Assembly: GCF_037201965.1 (NCBI RefSeq)
Contig: NZ_CP147518.1
Span: forward strand, 4,271,001 to 4,335,000
DNA length: 64,000 nt
DNA from: Spirosoma sp. SC4-14
Lineage (GTDB): Bacteria; Bacteroidota; Bacteroidia; Cytophagales; Spirosomataceae
Direction: 5' to 3'
Shown: in pieces, positions 2,197 through 61,594 of the stretch
Layout: the number at the start of each line of letters is the position of its first letter
Numbering within the stretch: position 1 is the first letter of the stretch
The notes under the pieces: model-generated
What the model was told of the DNA's origin: nothing
Databases searched by the model: none
What the model saw: the letters and a program-made list of their open reading frames with translations, nothing else
Made by a program: the position numbers and the translations under genes

Positions 2197-5187
2197 TCAG
2201 AATCCCAGATTCAGGCCAAGTGTGTAGGTTTTCGAGTTAGGATACGAACCATAATCAATCCCAATAGCCGTGTCGGTCGATGAGCCAACCCGCGACGATT
2301 CGGGGTCAGGACCGCTATATTTCGTAAAGGTCAGCAGGTTGGTTGCACTGGCAAACACCCGAATGTTGGCTTTGTTCTTAAGCAGACTCGAAGGAATATT
2401 GTATGACAGGCTAACGTTTTTCAGGCGAACGAAGCTGCCATTCTCCAGGAACCGGCTCGACTGTGTAAACGGCTGATAGGTTTTCGTAAACGCTGGCACA
2501 TCGGAGGTTTCGTTGCCGGGCCGGTAGTAGTTGCGGATTTCCGACAGAATGAACTGACGTGCATCGCCCGCCCCCGACATGGCAGCCGCCCGCGTGTAGT
2601 TGAGTTTATCGACACCAAACACGGCATTGAAGAACACATTCAGCGTAAAGCCTTTATACGACATGGTGTTGTTCCAGCCGCCCGTTACACGCGGAAACGC
2701 CCGGCCAATAATCTGGAAGTCGTCGGTGGTAATGGAGTTGTCGCCGTTCAGGTCCTGATAGTGCGGATCGCCGGGAACCCGCCCGAACTGAGCTGCCAGA
2801 TCGGCTTCGTTTGGTTTGAAGGTACCGAGGTATTTCAGCCCCCAATACGAACCCAGCGACTGACCAGGCATCAGCATATACTCGTACGTTGTCGACATCC
2901 CTCCGCCAACACCCGTACCGGTGCCCAGCCGTGGCAAACCACCCAGGCTAATCACCTGATTTTTCAGGGTCGACACATTCAGATTCGACTCCCAGCGGAA
3001 GCCACCTTTGTCGATGGGTACGCCACCGAGCGAAAACTCAAAGCCTGTGTTTTCGACTTCGCCCACGTTTCTGGTTTGTGTGCCCCCCCCTGCGTAAGCT
3101 GGTATAGCCACATTCAGCAACAGATCGGTGGTATTTTTCTTGAAATAATCCGCTTCCACATGAATGCGCCCATTCAGGAACTCCATTTCCAGCCCCACAT
3201 CGACCTGACGGGTTGTTTCCCATTTCAGGTTCGAATTACCGGGATTGCCCAGAATAACCCCGGCCGTGGCGGCAGTGTTGTTGAAAGCCTCGAAGGTAGT
3301 GCCATAGGTCGACAAGGTTGCGTAGGGGTTGATAGCCTGGCTACCTGTCATACCCCAGCTACCCCGCAGTTTCAGATTGCTGAACACGTTGAGCTTTTTG
3401 ATAAATTCTTCCTCCGACAACCGCCAGCCGAGCGCTACCGACGGGAAAACACTGTATCGGTTCGCTTTGCTGAATTTTGACGAACCATCCCGCCGAACCG
3501 CAGCCGATACCAGATATTTGTCTTTATAGCCGTAGTTTACCCGACCCAGCAACGAAAGCAGTGTCCATTTCTGATAGGCCGAAGCGACCGAAGCAGCCGC
3601 ATTACCGCCGATGTTATCGTAACCCAGTTGTGGGAAACGAAGACCCGATGCACTCGCCGTAAAGTTCCGCTCGGTATACTGCTGCGTTTCCAGCACCGCA
3701 ACCGCATTGATCGAGTGATCGCCAATTTTTACATCATAATTCAGGTTGTTGGTGTTTTGCAACGTAACCTGTTCGTAGGATGAACGGCTGGCATTCGGCA
3801 CATTGTTCGAGAGCCGCTTGCCCGTAAAATTCAGATTCTGAATATCGCCGTAGTTGATCGCATAAGTCAGGTCGAGCGTCAATCCCTTAACGGGAAGTTT
3901 ATAGTTCAACCCACCATTTACGTTCAGATTGGCGCGAGTTACGTCGATGGACTGATCGTAGAGATAATCTAACGGATTGCGATATACGGAACCAATCGGG
4001 TCTGTAAAGGTCGGCTGACCGTCGGCCCCATAGGCAGGTGTTGTGGGTGCCCAGGCCAGTGCCTGAACAATAGCGCCCCCGTCGACGGTGTTATGGTTTT
4101 TATTCTGGGTTCCCCACAGGTTCAGCCGAAACGATAATTTGTCATTGACCCGCGTGTTGATGTTGGTGCGCAGAATATAGCGTCTGAAACCACTGTTGTT
4201 TACGATACCGTTCTGGTTGAGGTAGTTGCCCGAAATCAGGAATGTTGTTTTATCGCCACCGCCCGAAACCGTTACCTGATGCTGCTGACCGCTACCGGTC
4301 CGAAAAACCAGACTCTGCCAGTCGGTACCACCGTTTTGTTTGAATTGCGCAACCTGATCAGCCGTAAAAGGTGGCGTTGTTCCCGTCGCCGTAGCCCGTG
4401 CATTCACAATTTCGGCAAATTCGCCAGCGGGCAAAACATCGTATCGCTTAATGAGTTCCGACACGCTTCCCTGGCCTTCATAGGTCACTTTAAGTCCTCT
4501 CGCTCCTTTCTTGGTTGTAATGATAACGACCCCGTTTGCACCGCGACTACCGTAAATCGACGTCGACGCAGCGTCTTTCAAGACCTGGATCGTTTCGATA
4601 TCATTCGGGTTTACGTAGTTAAAATCGGCACCAACGTAGCCATCGACAATGTACAGCGGGTTATTATTTCCCAATACAGAGTTAGCACCCCGAATCCGAA
4701 TCCGGGCATCGCCCCCCGGCGCTCCGTTTGTCTGCGAAACCTGCACCCCCGCAGCTCGGCCCTGCAACACCTGGTCGAGTCGGTTGACCGGCTGCTGGGC
4801 AAATTCTTTTGTAGAAATAGACGTCAGTGAGCCCGTCACGTCGGTCTTTCGCTGTGTACCATACCCCACAACGACCACTTCATTCAACGTTTTCTGATCT
4901 TCTGCCAACTGCACATTAACGACAGACTGGCCATTAATGGGAATCGTCTGGCTAACATATCCGATATTGGAAAACACCAGCGAGGCATTACCGGGCGCAT
5001 TCAGCGAAAATGTGCCATTTACATCCGTCGATGTACCGAGGGTGGTACCACTCACCTGAACGTTTACACCAGGCAATCCCTGATTGTCTGGACCGGTTAC
5101 TTTACCAGTTATTCTGGCATTCTGAGCAAAGGCAAAACCCTGGCTCAGAAACAGCAGAAGCAGGAAAACTTTTAGACTTTTTTTCAT
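2197..5187 (-). CDS. SusC/RagA-family TonB-dependent outer-membrane transporter
   Basis: This 996-aa protein is a TonB-dependent beta-barrel that imports oligosaccharides or related ligands with its SusD lid. The start at 5187 gives the signal peptide MKKSLKVFLLLLFLSQGFA followed by AQ; seven upstream residues in the same frame are unlikely to be used. A carboxypeptidase-regulatory-like domain follows (about residues 25-105, ITGKVTGPDNQGLPGVNV), then the plug with VVVGYGTQRKTDVTGS, RIRIRGANS, PLYIVDG and KDAASTSIYGSRGANGV, all SusC hallmarks. The barrel ends in LGLNLGF with a terminal Phe as expected for BAM-dependent insertion. It precedes the SusD gene at 534-2009. Confidence 0.95.
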   Translation of the reverse strand: MKKSLKVFLLLLFLSQGFAFAQNARITGKVTGPDNQGLPGVNVQVSGTTLGTSTDVNGTFSLNAPGNASLVFSNIGYVSQTIPINGQSVVNVQLAEDQKTLNEVVVVGYGTQRKTDVTGSLTSISTKEFAQQPVNRLDQVLQGRAAGVQVSQTNGAPGGDARIRIRGANSVLGNNNPLYIVDGYVGADFNYVNPNDIETIQVLKDAASTSIYGSRGANGVVIITTKKGARGLKVTYEGQGSVSELIKRYDVLPAGEFAEIVNARATATGTTPPFTADQVAQFKQNGGTDWQSLVFRTGSGQQHQVTVSGGGDKTTFLISGNYLNQNGIVNNSGFRRYILRTNINTRVNDKLSFRLNLWGTQNKNHNTVDGGAIVQALAWAPTTPAYGADGQPTFTDPIGSVYRNPLDYLYDQSIDVTRANLNVNGGLNYKLPVKGLTLDLTYAINYGDIQNLNFTGKRLSNNVPNASRSSYEQVTLQNTNNLNYDVKIGDHSINAVAVLETQQYTERNFTASASGLRFPQLGYDNIGGNAAASVASAYQKWTLLSLLGRVNYGYKDKYLVSAAVRRDGSSKFSKANRYSVFPSVALGWRLSEEEFIKKLNVFSNLKLRGSWGMTGSQAINPYATLSTYGTTFEAFNNTAATAGVILGNPGNSNLKWETTRQVDVGLEMEFLNGRIHVEADYFKKNTTDLLLNVAIPAYAGGGTQTRNVGEVENTGFEFSLGGVPIDKGGFRWESNLNVSTLKNQVISLGGLPRLGTGTGVGGGMSTTYEYMLMPGQSLGSYWGLKYLGTFKPNEADLAAQFGRVPGDPHYQDLNGDNSITTDDFQIIGRAFPRVTGGWNNTMSYKGFTLNVFFNAVFGVDKLNYTRAAAMSGAGDARQFILSEIRNYYRPGNETSDVPAFTKTYQPFTQSSRFLENGSFVRLKNVSLSYNIPSSLLKNKANIRVFASATNLLTFTKYSGPDPESSRVGSSTDTAIGIDYGSYPNSKTYTLGLNLGF

Positions 5188-52069: not shown

Positions 52070-53559
52070 TGTCTTAACCCCCTGAATGACTGGACAAAAT
52101 TGCAAAAACAGGTGGTGCGCCACTGCGATTAGTCCTTTTACATTCAGAAATTATGAGCAAAATCAGGCGGAGTTTTACCCCCGAAGACCGTTATTCTATC
52201 GTACAGGAAGCCATCCGTGACGGCCATGCCGAGACTTGTCGCAAGTACAATGGCTCGGGCCACCCCGTTATCCCCTTCGCTGCTGCGAAAGTGGCGTTTG
52301 AAATATTTAAGTAAAGGCAAAGAAGGCTTGAAAGATTCCTATGCACGCGTTGATCCCCAACTGCGAACACTTGAAGAGGAAAATGAACGCCTGAAGCGGA
52401 TTGTGGCAAAACAGGCCTTGGAAATTGAAATCAAGAGCGAACTGCTAAAAAAAACGCCTATTCAACCGCCCGGCGGCCCGGCCAGGAGAAGCTAACACTC
52501 ATGGAGCAGTCGCTTCGGCGATCCGATCGAAAATCAGGTAAGTCATACCCTGTTATGCCAGTGGCTCAACCTGCCACGGAGCGTATCTTATTACCAACCT
52601 CAATCAGGTAGGCCTGGGGCAAGACCCAGCCAGGTGACTTTGAAATTGGATGGATCGTGGGTCGACAATCAGCTGGTAGTGAACAGTATTCGTCAACTGC
52701 TGGATGCTGAATTCAACGCTCTAGGTTACGAATACATCACGTATGAGTTGAAAAAAGAGTATATCATTAACAAGAAGAAGGCGGCCGCCGCGCGGTATAC
52801 CGATTGATGCAGGAGCATAATTTACTTTTAGGCAAAGTGATCCGGCCGACAGGTAAGCGGGAATTTGTTCAATTCAGACGAATTGAAGCAACCAAGCCCT
52901 TGGAATACCTGTGTTGGGATATCAAATACGTCTGGGTAGAAGGGGAACGACGGAATTACCGCTGCGGCGGGCCGCTATCTGTTGAGCGTTATTGATGTGT
53001 ATATCGGACCGCCGAAGCGGCCGCAAAATTCTAGACTGGCTGTTCCAAGGCAGTATTCGTCAAATCGACTTAATCAATCTTTTTCGACGAATAAACCGGA
53101 ATCATGAACTGAAGGGCGTCATTTTGCGCAATGATAACGGCAGCCAGCGGTCCGCCGCCGCGGTTCATTGCTCATTCAGTGCGCAACTTTTTGAAAAGCT
53201 CCGAGATCAAGCAGGACCGGGACGCCGGAGCGTTTCACCCATGTAGCCACACCTGAAGAGAATGCGTACATTGACCGGGCAGCCGGCGCTGGCTTTTCAC
53301 AGCATTCTAGAACATGACGTGATTGAGCGTAATGTATTTGACAGCTATTATGAGGCCAAAGAAATGTTAGGGCGTTATTTTTCCCATTACAACCGCCAGG
53401 CGGCCCTGCATCATCGGCTTCATCGTTCGATTGGTTTTATAACCGCACCGGCGGCCCGGACCCCAGCAGAAATGGGAAGAAGCACAGGTAATTTACGACA
53501 CAACAGCAGCGGCTGCCGCCTTTTCAGAAAATTTGTCCAGCTAATAGGGGGCTAAGACA
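52070..53559 (+). mobile_element. IS3-family element, inactivated
   Basis: Imperfect terminal repeats TGTCTTAACCCCCT (52070-52083) and AGGGGGCTAAGACA (53546-53559) differ at one of 14 bases and bound the transposase remnants. At 1490 bp it is about the usual IS3 size plus roughly 160 bp, the sum of the ten GC-rich insertions. No target duplication is visible. Confidence 0.8.
52153..53544 (+). pseudogene. IS3 transposase OrfA/OrfB interrupted by ten GC-rich mini-hairpin insertions
   Basis: OrfA starts MSKIRRSFTPEDRYSIVQEA and continues after a frameshift with LLRKWRLKYLSKGKEGLKDS and a coiled coil (LEEENERLKRIVAKQALEIE). OrfB pieces in three frames include LCQWLNLPRS, YITYELKKEYIINKKK, LMQEHNLLLGKVIRPTGKR, KILDWLFQGSIRQIDLINLF, FIAHS and FHSILEHDV (the DDE region), ending FSENLSS. 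Breaks fall at 52252, 52470, 52515, 52781, 52960, 53009, 53148, 53217, 53275 and 53445. Each break contains a hairpin of two 4-nt arms with a 4-nt loop (3 nt at 52785), for example CCGG-GCAG-CCGG at 53275-53286. Deleting 16 bp at most sites rejoins the frame. Apart from these breaks the sequence looks well preserved. Confidence 0.8.
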
Positions 53560-57481: not shown

Positions 57482-60400
57482 TTACCAGAAACGATTGCGT
57501 TTTTCAACCCGTTCCTGCCAATGCAGGTGACGGCGAATGCCCTCTTTCATGCCCTCGAAATCGATATGGGTTTCCTGACGGGGGGCCTGTTCCCAGGCCG
57601 CCAGGAAGGCCGCCTGAAACTGCCGGGGCGTCATGGCGGCCGGAGCCGTGGCCATGGCCTGCTGTACACTCAACTGAGCCCCCGCCTGGCGGCTGCGCTG
57701 AAGCGTATCGGCCGTCTGCTGATTCCATTGGATGGCCTGCTGCCAGGAATCCCCCATCGCCGGTTGCCGCCAGGAGGCCATCAGTGCCGCCGTTTCGGTG
57801 GCCGTGAAGACCCGGTCCCCCGGTTGGGTGGTAAACAGGGTCGGTTTGTCGAAGACCTGGCTATAGCCTTCCCGGTCGATGAGCAGCTCGGCCCCGGCCT
57901 CCCCCGCCAGGGCCAGACCCGAATAGGTATCGCTGGCCAGCTTGCCGTCTTTGTAGGCCGGTAGCGGTTTGGCCAGCACCGCAGCGGCTTCCAGGGCCCC
58001 CGTGGCAATAACGAACGCGGTCAGAATGCCCGCCGAAATACCCAGATCGGCGTAGTGGGTGCCGCCACCGGTCGACAGTACCGAGGCTACCCCCATGGCC
58101 GTCGACAGGGCAATGTTGAACAGGGCCTGCTCCCGGTCGGCAATCGCCTGCTTGCGGGCTAGTTCGGCTTTGCGTTTGGCGTAGTTCTCCTCAATCTTCT
58201 GCTTGGCATCCGCATTGTCCCCCGCCAGCTTTAGCTCGTTGTCGTGCTGGGCTTCTAACTGCTGGCTTTCCCGTTCGTAGTTGCCCGAAACCAGGGCGAA
58301 GGTCGTTTCTCCCAGTTTGCTGGCGAAATCAGCCCCCAGCTTCAGTAGTTCATCCCGTTTCTGTTTGGCCTTCTCGATGTTTTTTAGCTCATGATCCGTT
58401 TCCAGATCACTCTGCTGCATGCCATTCTCGGCCTGCTCTTTGTTGAACTTCTTTTTGAGCTCCAGTTGCTCAGCGTCCCGCGCCTTTTCCAGTTCGGCAA
58501 TGGCCTTGTTAGCCGCTTCCATCTCCTGGGCATTGAGCATGGCATAATCCCGATAGTTTTTAAGCTGCTCGATCTTACTATCGTAGAGACCCTTGCTCAG
58601 ATCACTGTCTTTGTGGTAGGTTTCCTCCGTCACCCGCAGCGATTCCTGCAACTGCGCCAGTTGCAGGGCATAGAGCTGGGCTTCCCCCTCGGTTGGCGTC
58701 AGCTTGCCTTTGGCCACATCCAACTGAACCGTACGCTGCTTTTCGGCATAATACCGCTCCAGGGCCTGGAGCTTTTCTTGGTAATCGGCCCCCAGTGTCG
58801 CATTGACGGCCTTAACGGCGTCTTTGGTCTGCTCGAGCTCCTCGTTCCAGGCTTTCTGCTCGGCTTTGAGCCGTTTGCGCAGATAATCAGTCTGTTCCTC
58901 GGTCAGCCGGGTTTGGGTATCCCGGTAGAGTTGACTTTCCGCCTGCCCTGCTTCCTTCAGAATCGCCAGTTCCCGCTCCAACCCCGCCTGAAGCGCCTTA
59001 TGCCGCTGCTCGACGTAATCCATCGCCGATAGCCCCCCTTCACCATGCTGCACCTCGATCGCCGACACCTGGGCATCGGTATTGCTTTTGCTCGTCTTCA
59101 GATCAAGCTGGAGCTGAGCCCGTTTGTAGTCGGTATCGGCCTTGAGCTTGGCCTGCTGAATGGCCAGGTAGTCTTTGGTCTCCTGTTTGCCGTATTTTTC
59201 CAGTAACGCCTGCCGTTCAGCCAGGCCCTCCAGGGTCAGCTTGAGCCGCTGCTCAATAAACGTCTGCTCATCCAGCAACCCATCCTGCCGCTGGTTACTC
59301 AGACTGGCCAGCGCTTGCTCCGAACCGGCCTGCGACTTGCCCAGGGCCTCCCGCAGCCGCTTGTCGATTTCGGATTGTTTGACCTGGGGCTTATCATTGG
59401 CGGTAGACTGGGTGGCCGTTGTCGGATAGAGGATCTTGTTGAGTTGATCCTTGAGTTTGGTGGCTTCCTTGATGGTAGCCTCCCATTTACTCTTCTCTCC
59501 CCGCTGAAACGCTACGGCCGCTTCGGCCTGCTTTTGGGCGATCTTCTTGTTGTAGTCATCGATGAGCAGCAGTTGTTTGGCTTCAAAATCGCCCGAACGT
59601 TCAATGAACCCTCGCAGTGCCCCATCGACCTCACCCCCCGCAGCCATCAGCTTCCGGGCCGAGGCAATCGCCTCCTGGGTGTATTGCTTATTCTGGTCGG
59701 CCAGTTGCTTGGCCCGCTGCGGGTTGACATTGGCCTCAATGTTGACCCCCATGCCGATGTGCTGAGTTTCTTTGCCGCGCTGAAGCGTGAGTTGATTGGC
59801 GTTGATACGACCAATGTTCTTGTAGGCATCGGTTTTCAGCTCAGCAATGACCTGCTTGTTCAGCTCGGCATTCAACTCACGCTGGGCCTGGGCAAAGGCC
59901 ATCACTTTGGATTTGTTAACATCAAGCGCATTGCCGTACTGATCAAAGCCCGTTGCCGCAGCGGGCACGATCCCCGCCATCTCATTGACAATCCCCTGTA
60001 GCTCCTTCTGCTCTTTGGCTGTCAGGCTTGACTTCGATTGGAGTTCGTCATAGCGGGAAAGCAAAGGCGCTAAACTGGATTCGAGACTGTTCACCTTATC
60101 GGACTGATCAGCGAACGCCTGCGCGGATAATTGCGTATCACTAAACAGGTTGCGAACCGAGCGGGAAGCGGAAGTAATCAAACCAATGAACTGACCGAGT
60201 TTATCCCCGATATCAAGGCTTTTTACCCATTCGACCCCTTCATTGCGAAGCCGGGCCAGATTAGCCGCCAGGCCCTCTACCCGGCGTTCATGATTGGGGT
60301 TAAAGGTCTTTTCTAGTTCAGCGGCAAACTTAGGCAGAGCCTCGGAGGCCAACACTTCCCCGTTCTTGAGCATATCCCCTAGCTTGGTGGTGGTTACCCC

Positions 60401-61594
60401 CAGCGCGCGGGCCATGATGTTGAACGCCCCCGGTATGCGTTCACCCAGTTGCCCCCGCAGCTCTTCGCTCTGAATGGTGCCCTTGGACATCATCTGGGCA
60501 ATGGCCAGCAGGGCCCCGTCGGTGTCTTCGGTGGACTTCTTGAGCCGGCCCATCGTGCCGACCACCGAGGTAAAAATCTTGTCAGTGGCCTCCCCCTCCA
60601 GCCGCGTGCCTTTGCTGGAAGCCGTCAGGTTGGTGTAGCTTTTTTCAACCACCGAGAGGTCCTGGCCCAGATCATCCGAAACCCGCTGGAGCATCGCCTG
60701 CCGCTGGGTAAAGACGGCCGTGTCATTGGAGACCACTTTCAGGGCCGAGTCCAGCGAATCGAACTGAAGCGTTACCTCGCCAATTTTTTGCAGGGCCGCT
60801 ACACCGGTATCCAGCCCGGCCAGCGCCAGCGTCGTACCGACGGCTTTACCGGCCAGACCGCCTACCGCCCCGCCCACCGAGGGGTAATTGCCCACATTGC
60901 GGGAATAGACCCGCTGGCCCTGCTCAATCTTGGTCAGCAGGCTGATATTCTTCTGGTACTGCTGATTGAGGGCCACCGCAGCCCGGTTGTTCTGATTGAT
61001 TTTGCCCGTGGTTCGGTCGTAGGCATTATCCAGCGAGTCGAGCTGTTTTTTGAGATCGGCCGTTTGCTTCTTGAGACCCAGGTAGGAATTTTCAGCGGCA
61101 ACGATGGTCGATTTCGCCACCTGGAGGGCTTTGCTCTGGGCCTCGATGGCGCGGGTCACGGTGTTGACCTCCTGGAGAATGGCTTTTTGCTGCTTCTGAT
61201 AGTCTTTCTGGGTGGGGTCCAGGGCCTGATAGCGTTGGAAGAGGCTGGCCAGTTTAGCCGTCAGTTCGGTGACCACCTGCCCGTTGAGTTGCTGGGCCTC
61301 GGTCAGGTCTTTTTCGGCTTTGCGGGCTGTTTCCAGTTTGGCACCGACCTGGCCGATTTTCTGGATATAGTCGACAAGCTGGCGATCGGCCCCGTCTTTG
61401 GTAACGCTGAGTTTGGCTAAATCCTCCTTGAGGGGAATGAGTTGGCGGGCGGCCTCCTGATAGGCCGCTCGGATGCGCTGCAACCAGGCCAGCGTATGCT
61501 GGGCCCAGTCGGCTCCGGCGGCATCGAGGGCCTCGAGTTGGGCGTGATAGCCCTGGAAATCAAAAATGTCTTCGGGTTTGATAATACCGGGCAT
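57482..61594 (-). CDS. Phage tail tape-measure protein
   Basis: At 1370 aa this is a tape-measure protein, which sets tail length and is threaded into the cell during injection. A coiled-coil start (about 60-230) leads into the conserved tape-measure domain (SYTNLTASSKGTRLEG, GTIQSEELRGQLGERIPGAFNIMARALGVTTTKLGDMLKNGEV). Several long coiled segments follow, then a membrane-like stretch (GISAGILTAFVIATGALEAA) and the usual GLALAGEAGAELLIDREGY-type end. By the usual ratio of about 0.15 nm per residue a tail of roughly 200 nm is expected. No major tail, sheath, portal or capsid gene is seen nearby. Confidence 0.9.
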   Translation of the reverse strand: MPGIIKPEDIFDFQGYHAQLEALDAAGADWAQHTLAWLQRIRAAYQEAARQLIPLKEDLAKLSVTKDGADRQLVDYIQKIGQVGAKLETARKAEKDLTEAQQLNGQVVTELTAKLASLFQRYQALDPTQKDYQKQQKAILQEVNTVTRAIEAQSKALQVAKSTIVAAENSYLGLKKQTADLKKQLDSLDNAYDRTTGKINQNNRAAVALNQQYQKNISLLTKIEQGQRVYSRNVGNYPSVGGAVGGLAGKAVGTTLALAGLDTGVAALQKIGEVTLQFDSLDSALKVVSNDTAVFTQRQAMLQRVSDDLGQDLSVVEKSYTNLTASSKGTRLEGEATDKIFTSVVGTMGRLKKSTEDTDGALLAIAQMMSKGTIQSEELRGQLGERIPGAFNIMARALGVTTTKLGDMLKNGEVLASEALPKFAAELEKTFNPNHERRVEGLAANLARLRNEGVEWVKSLDIGDKLGQFIGLITSASRSVRNLFSDTQLSAQAFADQSDKVNSLESSLAPLLSRYDELQSKSSLTAKEQKELQGIVNEMAGIVPAAATGFDQYGNALDVNKSKVMAFAQAQRELNAELNKQVIAELKTDAYKNIGRINANQLTLQRGKETQHIGMGVNIEANVNPQRAKQLADQNKQYTQEAIASARKLMAAGGEVDGALRGFIERSGDFEAKQLLLIDDYNKKIAQKQAEAAVAFQRGEKSKWEATIKEATKLKDQLNKILYPTTATQSTANDKPQVKQSEIDKRLREALGKSQAGSEQALASLSNQRQDGLLDEQTFIEQRLKLTLEGLAERQALLEKYGKQETKDYLAIQQAKLKADTDYKRAQLQLDLKTSKSNTDAQVSAIEVQHGEGGLSAMDYVEQRHKALQAGLERELAILKEAGQAESQLYRDTQTRLTEEQTDYLRKRLKAEQKAWNEELEQTKDAVKAVNATLGADYQEKLQALERYYAEKQRTVQLDVAKGKLTPTEGEAQLYALQLAQLQESLRVTEETYHKDSDLSKGLYDSKIEQLKNYRDYAMLNAQEMEAANKAIAELEKARDAEQLELKKKFNKEQAENGMQQSDLETDHELKNIEKAKQKRDELLKLGADFASKLGETTFALVSGNYERESQQLEAQHDNELKLAGDNADAKQKIEENYAKRKAELARKQAIADREQALFNIALSTAMGVASVLSTGGGTHYADLGISAGILTAFVIATGALEAAAVLAKPLPAYKDGKLASDTYSGLALAGEAGAELLIDREGYSQVFDKPTLFTTQPGDRVFTATETAALMASWRQPAMGDSWQQAIQWNQQTADTLQRSRQAGAQLSVQQAMATAPAAMTPRQFQAAFLAAWEQAPRQETHIDFEGMKEGIRRHLHWQERVEKRNRFW

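Follow-up and report, generated by a model that had tools for sequence, protein, structure and literature searches.

Ultra-short GC-rich units with two alternative hairpins in an IS3 transposase of Spirosoma sp. SC4-14 and in other genomes of the genus

The described systems nearest in kind to the units reported here from the bacterial genus Spirosoma are the GC clusters of yeast mitochondria, a resemblance that the initial annotation had proposed and that the present analysis upholds. In the excerpts available of their description, these clusters (GC42, for example) are short GC-rich hairpin elements with stems more constrained than loops, which are sporadically present or absent at homologous sites and are thought to be mobile by a route that is unsettled; GC42 is mitochondrial, mostly intergenic and has AG target nucleotides (PMC4478555). 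The Spirosoma units share with them the constrained-stem hairpins and the presence/absence polymorphism, a likeness in kind that leaves sequence homology aside, but are 16 nt long, lie on a bacterial chromosome and often in transposases, form overlapping alternative stems and have an R^GY target. REP and REPIN sequences are palindromic, occur inside and between genes and sometimes as inverted pairs, and REP are 20-40 bp long with stems of 5-13 bp (GTAG type) or 8-9 bp (CGTC type) (PMC3733652, PMC8266576). A dedicated Y1 transposase (TnpA-REP, RAYT) goes with the GTAG-type REP, and the CGTC repeats go without one (PMC3733652). In contrast, the Spirosoma units are shorter (14-16 nt), have covarying stems of 4 bp and lack a constant tag: GTAG, CTAC and CGTC occur in none of 35 distinct 17-mers and GACG (CGTC on the other strand) in two, and a tag beside the unit is absent, the neighbours being only R and Y. 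Unlike the GTAG-type REP with their dedicated enzyme, 7 of 36 Spirosoma carriers are without a detected Y1_Tnp.

Rickettsia palindromic elements are much longer and leave the reading frame intact, whereas in the Spirosoma copy analysed here 9 of 12 coding inserts shift the frame. These elements are palindromes found within coding genes (PMC3733652). Out-of-frame inserts in otherwise conserved genes are known as the byps of Magnusiomyces mitochondria and from T4 gene 60, and byps seem to be context-independent (PMC5009743). The Spirosoma units are likewise out-of-frame inserts in conserved genes, but they are 14-16 nt long and occur in both orientations and all codon phases. Sponge mitochondria contain repetitive hairpin-forming elements (PMC2800124). 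These and the elements of fungal mitochondria resemble the Spirosoma units as short hairpin repeats, and the excerpts available of their descriptions do not mention overlapping alternative stems. The elements of fungal mitochondria are double-hairpin elements, and like the hairpin elements of sponges they are organellar and longer than the Spirosoma units. A search of open-licence papers, through listings and the beginnings of abstracts, found no literature on such units in Spirosoma.

The copy in question lies in a window of 64,000 nucleotides (the whole stretch of DNA that was analysed) from Spirosoma sp. SC4-14, whose genome of 8.1 Mb is in two contigs. Its ends are inverted (TGTCTTA...TAAGACA), and in its insert-free relative L006 orfA matches HTH_Tnp_1 and orfB matches rve (Pfam); by these orfA/orfB domains and inverted ends the window copy and its relatives fit the IS3 family. 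A target duplication of 3-4 bp is expected of this family; none is visible at the ends of the window copy (flanks gtac and aaac), and one copy in genome G001 has TTAG flanking both sides. Insert-free relatives of 1287 bp are present in five other genomes of the genus (G003, G004, G005, G031 and G035), and alignment to them, a check that the initial annotation had called for, fixes the boundaries of the inserts. The search for IS copies scored at most six candidates per genome, and the numbers of copies per genome are therefore lower bounds.

Compared with these relatives, 13 inserts are present in the window copy, nine of them 16 nt long, three 15 nt and one 14 nt; together they amount to 203 bp, exactly 1490 minus 1287 (Table 1). 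Ten GC-rich additions had been noticed in the transposase at the outset and all ten are present. Seven of the eight that were given exact coordinates are placed within 1 nt and the remaining one, given as 53009-53024, is actually at 53004-53019; the two given as about 52470 and about 52515 are of 15 and 16 nt, and the one at 52781 has the 14 nt claimed for it. Three had been overlooked (52111-52126, 16 nt; about 53393-53407, 15 nt; 53504-53518, 15 nt), so that the observation is confirmed with more inserts than first noticed. The GC content of the inserts is 0.87 and that of the remainder of the copy 0.44. The coding part holds 12 of the 13, and because of those that shift the frame the window transposase is not made whole by ordinary decoding. 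Without the inserts, the 354 codons compared contain no in-frame stop and no other frameshift indel; the transposase is intact outside them, as had been recognised, and ordinary slow decay is rejected as their source.

Table 1. Position of the IS3-family copy and of its 13 inserts in the window; element spans include one base shared with the target (full length 17 nt, equal to 16 nt net).
Feature	Position	Strand	Size or sequence	Same site in other copies
IS3-family insertion sequence copy	52070..53559	+	1490 bp, 13 micro-inserts	
Element 1	52112..52128	+	17 nt with shared base; upstream of orfA	also filled in 5 other copies or fragments
Element 2	52251..52267	-	CGGGGTGGCCCGAGCCA	common to G006 and a G004 fragment
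Element 3	52466..52481	-	15 nt net	
Element 4	52510..52526	-	TCGGATCGCCGAAGCGA	
Element 5	52781..52795	+	14 nt net, without both spacers	also filled in G001b, G034C39, G013C90
Element 6	52959..52975	-	GCGGCCCGCCGCAGCGG	G001a, G001b identical
Element 7	53004..53020	+	TCGGACCGCCGAAGCGG; variant common genome-wide	
Element 8	53147..53163	+	GCGGTCCGCCGCCGCGG	common to G013C60a
Element 9	53217..53233	+	CCGGGACGCCGGAGCGT	
Element 10	53275..53291	+	CCGGGCAGCCGGCGCTG	G001a identical
Element 11	53393..53408	-	15 nt net	G013C62a, with compensated change
Element 12	53443..53459	-	CCGGGCCGCCGGTGCGG	
Element 13	53504..53519	-	15 nt net	also filled in G001a, G006, G031C48b and an older remnant in the Spirosoma sp. 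SC4-14 genome

Two further features were noticed in the same genome. An internally deleted older copy of the same IS (G000:C1:44720-45048, approximately 91-92% identity) also contains inserts 1 and 13 and, by partial alignment, insert 12. Within the window, a 1370-aa ORF on the minus strand (57482-61594) resembles a phage tail tape-measure protein by reading of its translation, which suggests that a prophage may adjoin.

The architecture of the units is that of a single family with the motif NNGGxNNGCCNNyGCN(N). Counted with the shared target base, a unit has the layout A(4) x B(4) A'(4) y B'(4) and can fold into either of two overlapping stems, A/A' (positions 1-4 with 9-12) or B/B' (6-9 with 14-17); A' begins with the base on which B ends, so that the two hairpins are mutually exclusive. 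The spacers x, y or both may be absent, giving net lengths of 16, 15 or 14 nt. In the window copy 12 of the 13 inserts form all 8 pairs and the remaining one 7 of 8, although placement of the elements was chosen by best pairing in several counts (architecture, target, inheritance and divergence), which favours the architecture. Among 39 distinct 17-mers, taken from all 51 net-16 events with no filter on pairing, 93.8% of 273 cells are paired and the covariation score is 0.478, compared with 0.106 (sd 0.020) when partners are reshuffled and with none of 500 shuffles as high. The 35 units with 7 or 8 pairs are 96.3% paired with a score of 0.514, and slid versions of the structure reach at most 54.6% and 0.118. 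Wobble pairs (G-U or U-G) fill 2 of the 273 cells, and this scarcity of intermediates is read as pairing at the level of DNA rather than RNA. C10 and C15 are invariant and G3, G8 and G14 occur in more than 90% of units, while C9 is fixed by the unit orientation chosen in the analysis, from which its partner G4 follows. The bases at positions 5 and 1 are complementary to each other in 42 of the 47 full-length units. Compensated stem changes are found at site 1167 (CAGG/CCTG versus CGGG/CCCG) and at site 77 of a second IS3 family (ATGG/CCAT versus ACGG/CCGT). The early remark that the inserts do not repeat a single sequence holds in that the variants differ, but they make up one covarying structural family with a nearly invariant core, by which unrelated hairpins are ruled out. 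Rfam returned a single match far under the gathering score (E 0.54). At site 542 of the second IS3 family, a 15-nt GC-rich unit with a poorer fit to the architecture, CCGCGCCACGGTGGC, recurs in four copies (L269, L234, L237 and L243), in one of them with a single change.

That these are a real and discrete class of micro-insertion, as had been proposed, is apparent from the spectrum of indels. The 161 distinct indels (from 283 sequences and 1.89 Mb, with a flank identity of 90% or more across 60 bp) comprise 78 of 1-5 nt, 2 of 6-13 nt, 75 of 14-16 nt, none of 17-24 nt and 6 of 25-30 nt; because most of the loci were chosen for matching the IS or the motif, the spike at 14-16 nt is not a genome-wide rate. 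At least 7 of 8 pairs are reached by 64 of the 75, compared with 3.4% after letter shuffling, a control that corrects for the best-pairing bias. Clean pairs of empty and filled sites with identical flanks are present. The empty site in 63 placed events has a purine at -1 in 52, a middle G in 48 and a pyrimidine at +1 in 55 (24, 15 and 21, respectively, at the 25 sites that belong to the IS family of the window copy), and in 52 events the base that element and target have in common is identical to the one in the empty site. Insertion is at R^GY sites, in either orientation and without target duplication, none having been seen at the insert sites. With a shared base A the empty base often differs, and thus replacement of one base by 17 is not always distinguishable from insertion of 16 nt. 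Position 17 usually pairs with position 6 in the placed events; in IS200/IS605-like single-strand transposition, the cleavage site is set by pairing with a guide within the element.

A comparison of copies is revealing of how the inserts have come to be distributed among them. Among nine copies of the window's family that are complete or nearly so, sites are shared 24 times, against 4.3 expected from random choice among 152 RGY places (the largest of 2000 draws being 17), in a set where neither the site-sharing nor the divergence pairs are mutually independent. The same variant, with at most one difference, is present in 19 of the 24 site-sharing pairs and in 9 of 300 different-site pairs. These two results rule out that hot spots received random variants in independent insertions. 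Local identity around shared inserts is not raised (0.854 versus 0.843 elsewhere), which speaks against recent recombination between copies. Because shared sites carry the same variant, much of the pattern is inheritance with IS lineages rather than fresh insertion; the patchy presence of inserts and the poorly supported copy tree imply some losses or old recombination as well.

The pattern YCGGRCCGCCGRNGCGG occurs in all 36 Spirosoma genomes searched, with 771 matches against 2 for the reversed control and from 1 (G008) to 158 (G005) matches per genome. In an order-wide sample it is found in 45 of 291 genomes, the control matching equally often in one genus (g13). IS relatives in Larkinella rosea and two Dyadobacter carry units, a second IS3 family is riddled likewise, and units are also found on a plasmid record of Spirosoma oryzicola; among the matches listed from a search of 5000 plasmid records, at least three are above 60% identity (two from Spirosoma and one from Fibrella). 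Within the genome of strain SC4-14, a sample of 800 kb (40 even pieces of 20 kb) contains 28 matches versus 11.5 in the control, and its 14 consensus-like matches are confined to three places: seven units in 2.3 kb of transposon remnants (IS110 and others), six in 0.9 kb of an IS3 remnant, and one in a small unassigned ORF. One common 16-mer has 22 near-matches (at most one mismatch) in this genome, of which 13 are assigned to transposons by Pfam or BLAST, three by reading of the translation alone (2863402, 4691081 and 4691674, where the pieces sent gave no Pfam match), and six are intergenic or unassigned. Units in other transposases of the genome, which the initial annotation had suggested looking for, are present in IS3, IS110 and ISL3. 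The motif in this genome is found for the most part in transposons and between genes. An insertion process aimed at transposons, as the initial annotation had proposed, may account for this, but an equal bias would be expected from selection against insertions in host genes.

Several individual loci show the units in other settings. Approximately 20 places were chosen for paired or intergenic-looking matches, and at least six of them proved to be long palindromes between genes, each arm of which bears a unit at the mirrored place (L088 in G004, L091 and L107 in G034, L093 in G025, L094 in G011 and L104 in G005), which look as if the palindrome arms had been corrected against each other. In G018 (many places, e.g. 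L095-L099) most pattern matches are of the variant CCGGGCCGCCGATGCGG, in which positions 1 and 12 do not pair; in the stretches read, this variant sits within a repeated palindrome (ACAAACCTATAAG...), which looks like a larger repeat that has captured a unit. At G024:C225, a unit near position 3799 (L018, L197) lies upstream of an RVT_1 match (4317-4967) and has an empty counterpart in L281; it perhaps sits in a group II intron. Lastly, a transposase remnant of 1.1 kb that holds two to three units is present twice in the SC4-14 genome (L111 15734-16816 and L069 6293-7375), with 99.8% identity and adjoining two different IS110 copies. Considered as a second freshly transposed riddled copy, this pair is a duplicated remnant instead, and a second clean case of that kind was not found.

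The units are probably one family of ultra-short GC-rich mobile elements that spreads through Spirosoma and some relatives and breaks the reading frame where it inserts. The unit would move or insert as folded single-stranded DNA, recognition may proceed through the two hairpins and the GG..GCC..GC core, and a putative enzyme would carry out the insertion. Insertions into host genes would be lost to selection, and multicopy transposons and intergenic DNA would tolerate the units. Y1_Tnp is found in 29 of the 36 Spirosoma genomes and not found in seven, among them the strong carriers G018 and G031 (the seven have 7, 38, 36, 20, 8, 2 and 8 pattern matches), and RVT_1 is found in 19 and not found in 17, including the window's genome; since each is missing from carriers, neither can be the sole present-day agent, and a Y1 transposase or a reverse transcriptase finds no support as the universal enzyme. 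Element count and Y1_Tnp count are weakly correlated (Spearman 0.35, p 0.04). It is very unlikely that an IS200-like (Y1) transposase mobilises the units as repeats of REP type: hairpins, a strand-asymmetric target without duplication, inverted pairs approximately 60-85 bp apart and the frequency of Y1_Tnp among these genomes are all in keeping with such an origin, but the constant GTAG or CGTC tag is missing, the units are of 16 nt only with 4-bp stems in two alternative registers, and there are the carriers in which Y1_Tnp was not found. An origin without any mobility, in which the units are made afresh by an error of replication or repair that favours short GC-rich hairpins, is improbable. 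The absence of target duplication and of an enzyme found would agree with it, as would the long intergenic palindromes whose two arms carry mirrored units, and the complementarity of positions 5 and 1 could be a copying trace; however, the core is nearly invariant, identical variants recur, the inserts by eye have no resemblance to their flanks and their length is sharply 14-16 nt. As for an artefact of sequencing or assembly, which the initial annotation had listed among its explanations, identical inserts at identical sites in independently assembled genomes (shared-site units in assemblies of S. arboris, S. utsteinense, S. endophyticum and Dyadobacter), together with the units of Larkinella rosea and of the Spirosoma oryzicola plasmid record, make it next to impossible.

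A serious rival, though an unlikely one, is that the inserts are micro-intervening sequences which are either cut out of the transcript or, as the initial annotation had proposed, passed over by the ribosome, the riddled transposases being still made and still selected. In its full form, where double-hairpin units in any codon phase are skipped, a gene cut 12 times yields a working protein under selection and the stems serve the skipping machinery, this would be somewhat more doubtful. The integrity of several of the most riddled copies is part of what recommends it, and a plain reading of these as dead copies does not predict the missing ordinary decay in several of them. Four of the six copies with at least six inserts have no other frameshift and no in-frame stop over 339-367 codons in two IS3 families (the window copy with 13 inserts, L243 in G001 with 11, G001a with 7 and L262 in G023 with 6), but two are damaged (L237, 11 inserts, one frameshift and one stop; L234, 7 inserts, three frameshifts), family 1 G-handle fragments entering this comparison from 150 compared codons upwards. 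By contrast, the insert-free LarkRos_L193 has 5 frameshifts and 7 stops; of the less riddled copies, G006 (5 inserts) and G034C39 (4) have one 1-nt deletion each and G013C90 (5) has none. Between the window copy and the intact G003 copy, non-synonymous change is as low as in intact pairs (synonymous to non-synonymous single-change codons 81:9). The inserts themselves differ by 7.3% at shared coding sites, compared with approximately 34% at third codon positions and 7.6% at first plus second (pairs with at least 60 comparable third positions), and by 24.5% at the lone shared non-coding site; in the second family, with all sites pooled, the figures are 10.8%, 43.9% and 14.6% (pairs of equal unit length with at least 50 positions and at least 3% third-position difference). 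Furthermore, G001 contains at separate places two copies of 7 inserts each that are 100% identical, with TTAG on either side of one of them, and no full-length insert-free copy among its matches (6 of 46 candidates scored), but mobilisation of a riddled copy in trans is conceivable, and the helper search covered those 6 of 46.

Changes unique to single copies, analysed in 17 copies, point in both directions. Those of the riddled copies include no stop, compared with 9 of 85 in three dead copies, a group inflated by the badly aligned Send48b_L177. At conserved positions, however, the six riddled copies have 20 synonymous and 45 non-synonymous changes and no stop (37, 60 and none when G031C26, with 2 inserts, is added), whereas three intact copies have 13 and 8 (Fisher p 0.019 for the six riddled copies and 0.054 with G031C26). 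Outside both pools are G031C74 (8 synonymous, 6 non-synonymous) and G013C60a (0 and 7, with 1 stop), with one insert each, and the insert-free G023 and G013C82. Skipping at expression is also opposed by the codon beside the insert at site 768, which would read TGA in two copies, and by codon phases of 6, 6 and 12 in both orientations, which leave no common take-off codon (third position 12 of 24, p 0.07, and so no codon-phase bias). The lengths of 14, 15 and 16 nt exclude one fixed frameshift, and among the units placed none is inside a recognisable host gene, though harmless inserts should survive there. A frame-breaking mobile micro-element is the most likely explanation, with skipping at expression as its serious rival.

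Whichever of these applies, units of 16 variable letters escape repeat finders easily, and riddled transposases look split to gene callers, one being annotated as two products on a plasmid record. If they are skipped at expression, bacteria would have in these units a counterpart to introns or to the bypass elements of mitochondria. If they are mobile, they would arguably rank with the smallest mobile DNA units so far known from bacteria and would carry their own covariation signature and have a defined site of insertion, so that the minimum size of a transposable element could be tested in a culturable genus.
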